Of a stretch of DNA of 64,000 bases, positions 48,469-53,156 are shown one piece after another. Source of the stretch: Psychrobacter sp. JCM 18901 (lineage in GTDB: Bacteria; Pseudomonadota; Gammaproteobacteria; Pseudomonadales; Moraxellaceae). The notes under the pieces are model-generated. The model saw nothing but the letters and a program-made list of their open reading frames with translations, was not told the DNA's origin and ran no database searches. A program made the position numbers and the translations under genes. Positions within the stretch are counted from its first letter, which is position 1. Every line of letters starts with the position of its first letter. The stretch covers positions 1-64,000 of the forward strand of contig NZ_BAWH01000004.1 in assembly GCF_000586435.1 (NCBI RefSeq), in the 5' to 3' direction.

Positions 48469-50429
48469 ATGACTCAGAAATCATTTCCTATCTCAGCCGA
48501 GTTTATGGCTGCTGCCAATACCACACCTGATAAGTACCTTACAGACTACCAGCAATCTATCGAATCAGCCGAAGCAATTGATGCTTTTTGGGCGAAGCGT
48601 GCTGAGCTAATCGACTGGATAAAAAAACCGACTAAGGTCAGTAACGTCAATTATGACTTAGATGATTTTAGCATTAAATGGTTTGAGGATGGTGAGCTGA
48701 ATATTTCAGTCAACTGTCTCGATCGTCACCTCGAAGAAAACCCATACAAGCCTGCTATCATCTGGGAAGGCGATCACCCTTCGTTGCACAAAATCATCTC
48801 TTTTAAAGAGTTGCATGAAGCTGTCTGCCGCTTAGGTAATTCATTGCGCAAGCTTGGCGTTGTAAAAGGTGACCGCGTAACGCTATATATGCCGATGATA
48901 CCGGAAGCCATGGTAGCGATGCTGGCATGTGCGCGTATCGGTGCGGTACATTCAGTGGTGTTTGGTGGTTTTTCTGCCGAGAGTTTGGGTAATCGCTTGA
49001 TAGACAGTCGCTCAAAAGTTGTTATTACCGCTGACGAAGGTTTACGCGGCGGCAAGCACACACCGCTCAAAGCCAATGTCGATCACGCACTCGACATGGA
49101 TGGCACTGAGAGTGTCGAAAAAGTCATTGTCGTTCATCGTACGGGTAACTCTATACCGATGAGTGGGCGCCGTGATGTGTGGTATCACAATTTGGTCGAT
49201 GGTCAATCAGAGATCTGCGAGCCTGAAGTTATGAATGCCGAAGACCCACTATTTTTATTATATACTTCTGGCTCGACTGGTAAGCCAAAAGGTGTAGTGC
49301 ATACTACAGGCGGCTATATCACCTATGCTATCTCAACGTTCCGTGATGTTTTTGATATCAAAGAAGATGACGTCTACTGGTGTACGGCAGATGTGGGCTG
49401 GATTACTGGCCACACGTACTCAACCTATGCACCATTGGCCAATGGCACGACAACGGTAATGTTTGAAGGTGTACCAGAGCATCCAACATGGGCACGTATC
49501 GGTCATATCATTGATAAGCATGACGTGACCATCCTATACACTGCACCGACAGCTATTCGCGCGATGATGAAAGAGGGCGACGCTTTCGTTCGAGAGTCGG
49601 ATCGTTCTAGTTTGCGTCTGCTAGGTTCGGTCGGTGAGCCGATCAACCCAGAAGCGTGGGACTGGTACTACAATGTCGTCGGTGATGGTAAATGTCCTAT
49701 CGTCGATACATGGTGGCAGACCGAGACTGGTGGCATCTTAATGGCACCAATACCAGGCACGGTCGATCTCAAACCGGGCGCGGCAATGACACCACTATAT
49801 GGCGTCAAACCAGAAGTCGTCGATAGTGATGGTGCGATTTTAGAAGGCCCTGCAGAAGGCAATTTGGTGATCAGTAGCGGCTGGCCAGGCAGATGCGTAC
49901 TATCTACAATGACCATCCACGTTTCTTAAAGACCTACTTTAGCGATTATCCGGGTCATTATTTCACGGGTGATGGCGCTCAACGTGATGAAGATGGGCAT
50001 TACTGGATTACTGGTCGTGTCGACGATGTACTCAACGTGGCAGGGCATCGCTTGGGCACAGCAGAGATCGAGAGCGCCGTGGTTGCGCACCCTGCAACTG
50101 CTGAAGCTGCGATTGTCGGTATGCCGCATGAGATACGCGGTACAGGCATCTGTGCATTTATCATTCTAAAGTCAGGTGAAGAAAAGACCGACGATCTAAA
50201 AGCAGAATTAAAACGCCATGTGCGTGCTGAGATTGGACCAATTGCGACTTTAGATGCCATCTATATGGTCGATGCACTACCAAAAACGCGCTCAGGAAAA
50301 ATCATGCGCCGTATCTTGCGTAACCTTGCAGCAGGGCAATATGTAGGACTGGGCGACCTATCTACACTTGCTGATAGCTCAGTGATTAATGACTTGGTTG
50401 AAGAAGTCAAAGCGGGTCGTGGAGAGTAA
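48469..50429 (+). CDS. acs: Acetyl-CoA synthetase, frame broken near 49892
   Basis: Activates acetate to acetyl-CoA through acetyl-AMP. Motifs are [40 protein letters not shown] (AMP-binding), [52 protein letters not shown] and the regulatory catalytic lysine in [14 protein letters not shown], the site acetylated in other bacteria. The frame is lost after SSGWPGR, where one base is missing before ATGCGTACT. Reconstructed length is about 653 residues, standard for Acs. A ribosome site AAAGGGA precedes the ATG, and a terminator follows. Confidence 0.95.
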
Positions 50430-50712: not shown

Positions 50713-51906
50713 ATGACTGATCATGCTTCGTGCTCAATTGCTCTATCTGCCCCAAAAATCGCCATCATCGGTGGTGGCCTAACGGGATTGCTCACAGCAA
50801 CACTATTAGAGCGCGCGTCAAACCAATCAAGCTCGTCATCTAACACCCCGCAAATCACTATCTTTGAAAAATCACGCAGTGTAGGCCGTTTAGCGACCCG
50901 TTATCGCAGCGATAGTAAAACTGATAAAAACTGGCAATGGTCGTTCGGTGCACAGTTTTTTACTGCGAAAACTGCTGTCTTTCAACAATTTATCGCGCCT
51001 TGGTTAGATACAGGGTTGCTACAGCCATGGTGTGCTGAAGTGATTGAGTTAACTCCTGCAAGTGACAATGGGCAACCGCCTAATATCCAAAGCAAAGAAC
51101 AATGGGACGCGGTGCATGCACGCTACATCAGTACACCGAAAATGACCAGTTGGGGCCGTGAATTGGCCGCCGCGCTCAAGCATACGACCATAATATTTAA
51201 GACCCGTGTCGCACCGCTCACTCAGTATTTGCAGTCTCAAAATCAGCAGCGGTCTCAGATCCAAATTTTTAATCAAAACAGCAAGCAAACTGAGCTATTT
51301 GACGAAACTGGAGCCAGTCTGGGCTGGTTTGATTGGGTTATTTGCACAGCGCCAAATGGTCAGGCGGTAGAGTTGATGGCAAATAGTAAGTTTAGTCAGC
51401 AAGACAAAATTACTAAACCACAAATGCAAGCCTGCTATACGCTGATGCTTGGCTGGGATGATGTGCAAAAACTACCTGAAACATTAAATGGCCAGCTAAC
51501 ACCGCAATGGGATGTCGCTTATTTAAATAGCGCTATTCTCGATAGAATATTTATTGAGCATCAAAAACCTGCCCATGGTGAGCTACTACCAAGTATCACC
51601 ATTCATGCACGTAATGACTGGTCAGAAGCTCACGTCGATGACGATATGGAGTCAGTCGAAGAACAATTATTACAGGCGGCAAAACAAGCATTAAATTGGA
51701 ATGAAGACAGCGCACCTAGCCAAACAGATTGTCATCGTTGGCGCTATGCAGCTACTATTGTAAATAAGGATGCTGAAGAGCTAGGCATATTAATCGATGC
51801 AACCAAGCAATGGATCGTCAGTGGTGACTGGTGTGCAAAAGGTAATATTGAGAGCTGCTATCGAATAGCGCAGCAAACCGTTAAGGCAATCATGCAAACG
51901 CAGTAA
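50713..51906 (+). CDS. Renalase-like FAD-dependent amine oxidoreductase
   Basis: A 397-residue flavoprotein, intact. The N-terminal dinucleotide fold is KIAIIGGGLTGLLTATLLER, followed by a FAD-binding EKSRSVGRLATRYR. FGAQFFTAKTAVFQQF corresponds to the GAQYFTAR block of bacterial renalase-type proteins, and the C-terminus has IVSGDWCAKGNIESCYRIAQQTV, the usual second FAD-contact motif. Bacterial renalases oxidise aberrant dihydro-NAD(P) forms; whether this one does is untested. The Ser/Thr-rich N-terminal loop is lineage specific. Cytoplasmic, monocistronic. Confidence 0.82.
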   Translation: MTDHASCSIALSAPKIAIIGGGLTGLLTATLLERASNQSSSSSNTPQITIFEKSRSVGRLATRYRSDSKTDKNWQWSFGAQFFTAKTAVFQQFIAPWLDTGLLQPWCAEVIELTPASDNGQPPNIQSKEQWDAVHARYISTPKMTSWGRELAAALKHTTIIFKTRVAPLTQYLQSQNQQRSQIQIFNQNSKQTELFDETGASLGWFDWVICTAPNGQAVELMANSKFSQQDKITKPQMQACYTLMLGWDDVQKLPETLNGQLTPQWDVAYLNSAILDRIFIEHQKPAHGELLPSITIHARNDWSEAHVDDDMESVEEQLLQAAKQALNWNEDSAPSQTDCHRWRYAATIVNKDAEELGILIDATKQWIVSGDWCAKGNIESCYRIAQQTVKAIMQTQ

Positions 51907-51972
51907 GCGTGATATCCATGCTCATTATTTTGCATCGTTTTACGATATCTGGGTTTAGCAAAACGTAAGTAA

Positions 51973-52073
51973 AAAAAGGCCCACAGAGGAGGTACTGTGG
52001 GCTGAGGAAAACGGGGCATGTATTAGCTACAAAGGCCGTGGTCAAGAGTTGTTGTAATTATTGGTGCTCTCTA
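51973..52073 (-). ncRNA. Candidate small regulatory RNA (about 100 nt)
   Basis: Between two plus-strand genes lies a minus-strand intrinsic terminator: a perfect 8-bp stem GCCCACAG/CTGTGGGC followed by T7 (51973-51979). Its loop reads TACCTCCT, so the RNA would display CCUCCU, complementary to Shine-Dalgarno sequences. About 100 nt upstream on the same strand is a promoter (52080-52107) with a Fur-box-like spacer. There is no ORF in the interval. The predicted transcript is C-rich and largely unpaired 5' of the terminator, as in many base-pairing sRNAs. Its identity with any known sRNA family was not established. Confidence 0.55.
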
Positions 52074-52079
52074 CTGTTA

Positions 52080-52107
52080 TTTATAAGGGTAATAATTATC
52101 AATACAA
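52080..52107 (-). promoter_or_regulatory. Promoter of the candidate sRNA with Fur-box-like sequence
   Basis: On the minus strand TTGTAT (-35) and TATAAA (-10) are spaced 16 bp. The sequence at 52088-52106 matches the classical 19-bp Fur consensus at 13 positions (core TAATAATTATCA), and it covers the spacer and the -35. This suggests iron-dependent repression; both calls are by eye. Confidence 0.5.
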
Positions 52108-52472
52108 TAGGTGGAGATATTTACTTAGCTATTTACATCTACTGATTTAAGTGTACAAGTGTTCTGGTACAGTCGCTATGATAGCGCAATTGAGTGCTGT
52201 CTGGCAGTTTTGGTTACAGTATATTACGTTGTAAAAATCCAAAAGACGCAAAGACTGGTATGAAGCACTGATATTTAGAGTAAGTAGCGGAGCTTTATGA
52301 TGCAATCATTGATAAAGGCTGCTAATAATTTCAATAGCTTATGTCGATAATAGGGCGTCTAGTCAACCTTGATATCTTTGATAACTCAATCGCTGCAGAG
52401 ATGGCATGACGCCTTGTCCGAAAAATGCTAAGCTATCTGCCATTATTATGTTCATATTAAACTGGGTTTGCC

Positions 52473-53156
52473 ATGACTGACAGCACGCATTTGCATACGC
52501 AGGAAGAACCGCCAAGTTCGCAAAATACCAAGAGTATTTTTAACTTGCCTAACAACCTTACGATTGCGCGTATCTTGATGATTCCGCTATTTGTCGCTAT
52601 TGCTTATTGGCCGCCAGCCATGGGTATTGGTATGCCTGCGATTTCAGACAATGTCATTGCGCGGGTTGGGATGAGCGAGTTTAGCGATAGTTTGTTGCGC
52701 CATTTGTTATTGACCGGCGTCTTTATTATTGCCGCGATTACCGATTGGCTCGATGGGTATTTTGCTCGTAAACTAAATGTTATGTCAGCCTTTGGTCGAT
52801 TTTTGGACCCTGTTGCTGATAAGTTAATGGTGGCTGTAGCGCTCATTGTCCTTGTACAGTGGCATCCCAATATCATTATGGCGATAGCGGCTATCGTCAT
52901 TATTTCGCGTGAAATCGCAGTATCAGCGTTACGTGAGTGGATGGCAGAGCTGGGTAAGAGTACTAGCGTCGCGGTATCTTATGTGGGCAAACTAAAAACC
53001 ACGTTCCAGATGGTAGCAATTACCGTACTACTGCTTAATTGGCAGTCGCTTGAAACCATCGGTTATGTATTAATGGTCGCCGCTGTGATACTTACCTTAT
53101 GGTCGATGATGATTTATCTAAAAGCTGCTTGGCCTTATTTAAAGCAAAGCGGATAA
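52473..53156 (+). CDS. pgsA: CDP-diacylglycerol--glycerol-3-phosphate 3-phosphatidyltransferase
   Basis: Makes phosphatidylglycerol phosphate in the inner membrane, the committed step to acidic phospholipids; essential. The CDP-alcohol phosphotransferase signature D-x2-DG-x2-AR-x8-G-x3-D-x3-D is seen as TDWLDGYFARK followed by FGRFLDPVADK (residues about 90-115). NLPNNLTIARILMIPLFV opens the domain, and several further hydrophobic segments follow, including the C-terminal YVLMVAAVILTLWSMMIYL. At 227 residues it is somewhat longer than the 182-residue E. coli protein, from a polar N-terminus and a loop near residues 50-65. Confidence 0.93.
   Translation: MTDSTHLHTQEEPPSSQNTKSIFNLPNNLTIARILMIPLFVAIAYWPPAMGIGMPAISDNVIARVGMSEFSDSLLRHLLLTGVFIIAAITDWLDGYFARKLNVMSAFGRFLDPVADKLMVAVALIVLVQWHPNIIMAIAAIVIISREIAVSALREWMAELGKSTSVAVSYVGKLKTTFQMVAITVLLLNWQSLETIGYVLMVAAVILTLWSMMIYLKAAWPYLKQSG

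Follow-up and report, generated by a model that had tools for sequence, protein, structure and literature searches.

The perfect 8-bp hairpin on the minus strand at 52002-51979 of the window (the whole 64,000-nucleotide stretch of Psychrobacter DNA analyzed here), evident both in the sequence and in a terminator scan, is, on comparative grounds, the 3′ end of a real small RNA gene of about 103 nt (51971..52073, minus strand), delimited by a promoter, a terminator and conservation. We consider it probable that the product is a stand-alone, trans-acting sRNA of the Hfq type, carrying two anti-Shine-Dalgarno seeds and selective for few mRNAs, and that it probably acts by blocking the translation of a few messages. 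A small RNA gene had been proposed at this place in a preliminary description of the sequence, and conservation and covariation now support an independent gene of this kind.

Structure and conservation of the gene

By its sequence, the gene lies in an intergenic region and has its own promoter and intrinsic terminator. The terminator hairpin GCCCACAG-TACCTCCT-CTGTGGGC (51979..52002, minus strand) consists of the 5′ arm GCCCACAG (52002-51995), the loop TACCTCCT (51994-51987) and the 3′ arm CTGTGGGC (51986-51979), after which come a C and a T7 tract (51971..51977); as first described, no minus-strand gene is near it, both flanking genes being on the plus strand. The promoter boxes described about 100 nt upstream are also present, with the −35 box TTGTAT at 52107-52102 and, 16 nt from it, the −10 box TATAAA at 52085-52080. 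Because TTGTAT-N16-TATAAA sits at 52107-52080, the transcript would start near 52073, about 7 nt past the −10 box, which gives the length of about 103 nt; the 5′ end is thus derived from the position of the promoter. A 111-nt fold has a z-score of −2.9, with 1 of 200 shuffles equally stable, and this value, together with genus-wide conservation and compensatory changes in the stem, argues that the hairpin is not due to chance. A coding reading was rejected: judging from 10 of the 71 regions, internal-start frames vary between species and continue beyond the T tract.

The sRNA has a variable 5′ half and a nearly invariant 3′ module made of the single-stranded UUUUCCUCA, the terminator hairpin, usually with a CUCC loop, and the U tract. 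The core alignment (A3) leaves out the matches in group g36 and two g28 matches past a same-strand gene (L064 and L066). Covariation in the stem was assessed over 32 diverse cores: 98.4% of the cells are paired, 21 cells carry double changes, and in six of the eight pairs both bases have changed. In 500 shuffles the pairing, the double changes and the covariation score were never equalled, and the observed number of pair types was reached 59 times. Of 36 distinct cores, 35 have UUUCCUC (TTTCCTC in the DNA), within UUUUCCUCA at 52003..52011, and 31 have CUCC in the loop UACCUCCU (51987..51994), while the stem around it changes; the other five cores lack the CUCC loop, and the searches used favour copies with both motifs. 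These counts come from 56 loci not selected by exact pattern; the pattern-selected loci L182-L228 were excluded from them because the pattern forced those motifs, and were included in the counts of upstream regions. An example of a changed stem is genome G105, where the arms are GCCUAUUGU and GCAAUAGGC and the loop CCACCUCCU, at the place divergent from pgsA. We take UUUUCCUCA as probable seed 1, which also supplies the U-rich stretch by the terminator, and the loop as probable seed 2. In the five forms that were folded, both are predicted to be mostly open, with the loop unpaired and the last base of UUUUCCUCA less so. The U-rich UUUUCC before the hairpin and the U tract after it are also conserved. 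In profiles over 19 divergent species the strongest conserved block is AGTTTTCCTCAGCCCAC with its CCTCC loop, and the other blocks are the pgsA-side region, ACASTTGTACACT with TTGTAAGCARATRTA, the −35 box and the A-rich 5′ stretch.

Distribution and genomic context

A blastn search with a 191-nt query matched 31 of 57 genomes, all of the same genus, many of them aligning only over the last 40-53 nt. R1, a covariance model that covers the 3′ core of 56 nt, was searched at E ≤ 0.01 and matched 113 of 299 genomes of the family: 94 of 105 Psychrobacter genomes (no match in the other 11), 5 from group g28, 8 from g31 and, weakly, 6 from g36. Each matching genome of the genus has a single match except G286, which has two. 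An exact-pattern scan of named genomes returned 47 stretches, all from Psychrobacter. A broader model matches the window once (E 6.7e-12), its second-best value there being E 2.2; of 390 genomes drawn from the order it matched 14, 10 of them from the genus, one from g31 and three, weakly, outside the family. In one genome the terminator and its 3′ flank recur as a second, partial copy, with 88% identity, about 12.5 kb from the sRNA (G003:C14:50863-50912). From these comparisons, the gene appears to belong to Psychrobacter and, in part, to two other genera of the family.

The three matches outside the family have E-values of 1.2e-4, 3.5e-4 and 3.9e-3 per genome, which over 390 genomes correspond to roughly 0.05, 0.14 and 1.5 chance expectations, these E-values being rough; given the first two expectations, the first two matches may be more than chance. 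The best of them (L300) is a similar-looking module. We rejected it as an sRNA and read it as a gene terminator because it lies directly 3′ of a same-strand gene, and for the same reason the likeness, striking as it is, is possibly convergent. The sequence at L300 (minus strand, about 1501-1553, in another family) reads TTCCTCC, then a hairpin with loop CCCCTCCTCC, then T8. The g36 matches (six genomes, E 1e-4 to 7e-3) were likewise not accepted, as a terminator past a same-strand gene is common to four of them; no promoter is conserved among those four loci. The four (L071, L073, L074 and L085) have in common the terminator GTTTTCC-(A/G)AGCCTAGAG-loop-CTCTAGGC ahead of a gene that looks by eye like thiE.

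Such cases bear on the reading in which the element is a terminator or relic only, with no separate RNA function. Its intrinsic terminator is indeed strong, similar terminators in the four g36 and in two g28 genomes end 81-418 nt past same-strand genes, and the L300 match directly follows one. In Psychrobacter, however, no gene runs into the sRNA terminator, the promoter and an upstream block are conserved with it, and the seed and loop are kept better than a terminator requires; this retention would be more than a plain terminator needs, and we regard a mere terminator as very improbable. The individual element at L061, in g31, may nevertheless be one, since its core ends only 114 nt after a gene on the same strand.

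On the downstream side, a gene with an NAD(P)/FAD-binding domain (50713..51906, plus strand, from a domain search), called renalase-like in the preliminary description, converges on the sRNA; it often, though not always, adjoins it and is taken as a neighbour only. Further away, an acetyl-CoA synthetase-like gene (by eye) at 48469-50429 on the plus strand is split into two overlapping frames of 486 and 178 aa, which join near 49893-49929, a frameshift that is either real or an artefact of the draft assembly. On the other side, pgsA (52473..53156, plus strand; Pfam CDP-OH_P_transf, CDP-alcohol phosphatidyltransferase) is the divergent neighbour retained by synteny: it lies upstream of the sRNA in 41 of 43 genomes of the genus inspected, the remaining two loci being cut at contig ends, and three g28 genomes and as many from g31 have the same arrangement. 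In G105 the sRNA is at the pgsA-divergent place and a second place scored better in the first search; the second, weak match of G286 (L087) has no pgsA adjoining it.

This association raises the question of whether the element is a local regulatory RNA that tunes pgsA, by divergent transcription or by pairing. Such a role would suit the near-constant neighbourhood, seen in the loci read from the genus and in part of g28 and g31, and also the conserved blocks that the shared region has on its pgsA side. Against it, five g31 genomes hold the element elsewhere, upstream of a large gene (the L062 copy has TPR domains), and by eye the pgsA leader contains no complement to the seeds, so that we think local control of pgsA improbable and continue to favour a trans-acting RNA. 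The five displaced loci have promoter-like boxes, TTGAAA-N16-YATTTA in four and TTGAAA-N16-TATTAA in L061, and three of them, near-identical to one another, have an A-rich start. RNA lengths of about 55-70 nt in g31 were derived from these boxes.

Promoter, upstream element and the iron hypothesis

The promoter is kept well beyond the close relatives of the window. The −10 box (52080..52085) takes the form YATNTT/A in many relatives and the −35 box (52102..52107) that of TTGAAT/A in many other species. Of 71 distinct upstream regions, 46 fit the pattern TTGWAW-N-(T/C/A)AT when the spacer is set at 16 nt, compared with 1, 1, 2 and 7 at lengths of 14, 15, 17 and 18 nt. The spacer is therefore conserved in length but not in sequence.

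Its sequence is the basis of the iron-responsive role given to the RNA in the preliminary description, in which the 16-nt spacer (52086..52101) was said to match the Fur consensus at 13 of 19 positions. A match is present, and at 14 of 19 the best one at the promoter is slightly higher than reported. This likeness carries less weight as evidence than the hairpin does: on both strands of the window, 45 stretches of 19 nt match this consensus at 13 or more positions. With the shorter Fur core (7-1-7), the spacer sequence TGATAATTATTACCC matches 12 of 14 positions, and the window has two sites with at most two mismatches, one of them the sRNA spacer, versus 0.37 expected, a number equalled in 5 of 100 shuffles. 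The score in the close clade of the window is 11-13 of 14, reaching 13 in the relatives L006 and L008. These figures would fit a Fur-repressed, RyhB-like RNA that spares iron. Opposed to them is the rest of the genus, which retains promoter and RNA: there the highest score within about 330 nt is in most cases 9-10 of 14, and the few scores of 11-12 fall at other places in this region. The best Fur-box-like sites of the window's own genome, moreover, score 13-14, matching TGATAATNATTATCA at 13-14 of 14 positions in eight of the nine loci read. These strong sites (L229-L237) could define the Fur regulon of that genome. Among the few candidate targets seen there is no iron gene, and the partial target tests turned up nothing for the claim that the RNA represses iron-using genes.

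Hairpin, loop and promoter, all expected in related genomes, are thus conserved there, and the Fur box, expected with them, is not kept outside the close clade. The Fur-like spacer appears to be confined to the window's own clade, with promoter and RNA kept beyond it, and we rejected Fur control as a trait of the family because the box is lost outside the clade while the promoter stays. A RyhB-like role in iron sparing seems to us improbable. As judged by this distribution, Fur control would not be a general property of the gene, and control local to the clade is conceivable; a Fur-like spacer in one genome can be local to a clade.

A different element is conserved further upstream. The block ACACTTGTACACT (52150..52162, minus strand), a probable activator site that also stands out in the profile, occurs as ACASTTGTANAC in 53 of 71 distinct upstream regions and is missing by this pattern from the other 18. 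A second half of the element follows (52117..52149), with TTGTAAGCAGATGTAA as its consensus form; the clade of the window has a longer variant of it, which contains GTAAA repeats. The upstream element contains direct repeats of TTGTA(A/C), with GTAAG-N5-GTAAG in part of the genus. We take these repeats to resemble sites of OmpR-family response regulators, such as the GTAAA-N5-GTAAA of CpxR, and the spacing of ACASTTGTACACT and the TTGTAA repeats is presumably of the same kind. At no more than two mismatches the consensus element was found in six of eight genomes searched, always at the sRNA gene, and at three mismatches one further locus appeared in two genomes. In the window's genome the first block is intact and the second half is the longer variant; the consensus-type pattern misses the sRNA there, and a related pattern matches two other places. 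Between this gene's upstream block and pgsA lies the palindrome CGCTATGATAGCG (52174-52186), where the sequence is partly conserved from species to species.

Proposed action and relation to known sRNAs

The mechanism that we propose starts with an activator that would bind ACASTTGTACACT and the TTGTAA repeats behind it and turn the gene on. Hfq, which is encoded in the window's genome (PF17209, E 2.5e-29), would hold the RNA through its U-tail and through the A-rich 5′ stretch AATAATTACAACAA (52049..52062), a possible distal-face (AAN) site of which a TAAYAAYAA-type stretch recurs in the alignments. The two pyrimidine seeds would then pair with the ribosome-binding sites of a few mRNAs, those with unusual GAGGAAA or AGGAGG leaders, and block their translation. 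The earlier suggestion that the exposed CCUCC loop pairs with ribosome-binding sites agrees with the conservation of this loop, which would suit it to such pairing. We do not envisage a general anti-Shine-Dalgarno RNA, because ordinary Psychrobacter leaders read AAGGA. In 174 orthologous start regions of three species, sampled from 400 kb (about one eighth) of each genome, leaders usually read AAGGA(A/T), and the three species together gave 3 occurrences of AGGAGG and 7 of GAGGAA; since AGGAGG is rare near the sampled starts, we expect the seeds to be selective and not general in action.

Target prediction by pairing, as proposed at the outset, was run on these 174 genes, and none stood above chance: conserved pairings were no better than those of shuffled seeds, of which 40 of 60 and 12 of 60 did as well. 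In the window's genome GAGGAAAA occurs near an ATG at 11 places versus 9 for a backward control, which is no clear excess; one of the 11 places is the sRNA gene, and a single site accounts for two of them. Matches in this genome lie at genes named by eye as mscL-like and lon-like. Two candidates were rejected. A recurrent 53-aa gene with CTGAGGAAAA has this leader in only 8 of 50 orthologous loci, most others having a leader of the AAGGA type, and the match proved to be clade-specific. A pilin-like gene (A242, named by eye) with GGAGG in three species gave the best loop match, equalled by 12 of 60 shuffled loops. The 53-aa product (L163:1515-1673; orthologues L238-L287) is a hydrophilic protein without a Pfam match, found, in some cases weakly, in 56 of 60 Psychrobacter genomes, with the G000 copy at C51:58092-58250.

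The lack of mRNA targets among those sought would also be expected of an RNA that titrates a protein instead of pairing with mRNAs, and short conserved motifs in single strands and loops could be protein sites. RNAs that titrate CsrA carry GGA motifs. The motifs found here are unlike these, being pyrimidine stretches complementary to ribosome-binding sites, and we see titration as a highly improbable explanation next to pairing with a few messages.

The preliminary description could not assign the RNA to a known family by eye, and Rfam did no better: there is no match at the sRNA at the gathering score, none on the minus strand at E ≤ 5, and none for the sRNA in the loci of eight relatives. 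Sub-threshold matches on the plus strand to STnc350 and SraC/RyeA (E 0.22 and 0.38) were taken as chance. By its features, this would be a new sRNA family of a known kind, without an Rfam counterpart. The trait characteristic of anti-Shine-Dalgarno sRNAs, a conserved CCUCC-type motif that stays unpaired while the stems vary, is present. RyhB, PrrF and ArrF are of the same size class and share the intrinsic terminator; the Psychrobacter sRNA differs from them in having neither a conserved Fur box nor an Rfam match. Judged by titles and the beginnings of abstracts, no paper listed by searches of open-licence PubMed Central describes a Psychrobacter sRNA, and two papers on Acinetobacter sRNAs gave no hit for pgsA, thiE, hemL or CCUCC.

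Several described systems come close. According to excerpts of the reports on meningococcal NmsR, two UC-rich anti-Shine-Dalgarno regions, one single-stranded and one looped, block ribosome binding (PMC5362039, PMC9973317). The likeness of NmsRA/NmsRB of Neisseria (NgncR_162/163) lies in this pair of single-stranded and loop motifs; in the portions consulted, however, these RNAs are a sibling pair with three stem-loops and the seed loop in SL2, whereas Psychrobacter has one gene with the seed loop in the terminator, the comparison being one of descriptions. In rhizobia, as far as the excerpted account goes, alpha-r14 / NfeR1 carries CCUCCUCCC in hairpins with variable stems (PMC10746234). It shares with our sRNA an ultraconserved CCUCC-type loop motif, varying stems and a conserved upstream stretch, and differs, in the same excerpts, in being alphaproteobacterial, with three hairpins and reported independence of Hfq, versus one loop and a linear seed in Psychrobacter. 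Aar of Acinetobacter, from the same bacterial family, is also about 100 nt long and, in the text available, uses a CUCC seed on ribosome-binding sites (PMC11472050). That text reports it solely in Acinetobacter, with the CUCC at 29-32 and two 3′ hairpins, points in which, by description, it differs from the Psychrobacter sRNA.

Taken further, these observations lead to a tentative proposal, to which we give somewhat less than an even chance: an sRNA family in which the terminator doubles as the hairpin that presents an anti-Shine-Dalgarno seed, which may shrink to about 55-70 nt (leader, seed and terminator, as in g31) and change its place in the genome with a similar promoter retained, and which in Psychrobacter would be switched on by an OmpR-family regulator to silence a few mRNAs with non-standard, strong ribosome-binding sites. 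The selectivity of the anti-Shine-Dalgarno seeds would follow from the usual Shine-Dalgarno sequence of the genus, AAGGA as opposed to AGGAGG. Psychrobacter is a genus with many cold-adapted species, and a genus-wide sRNA whose two seeds are separable and whose stem covaries would offer a tractable entry to post-transcriptional control in it.
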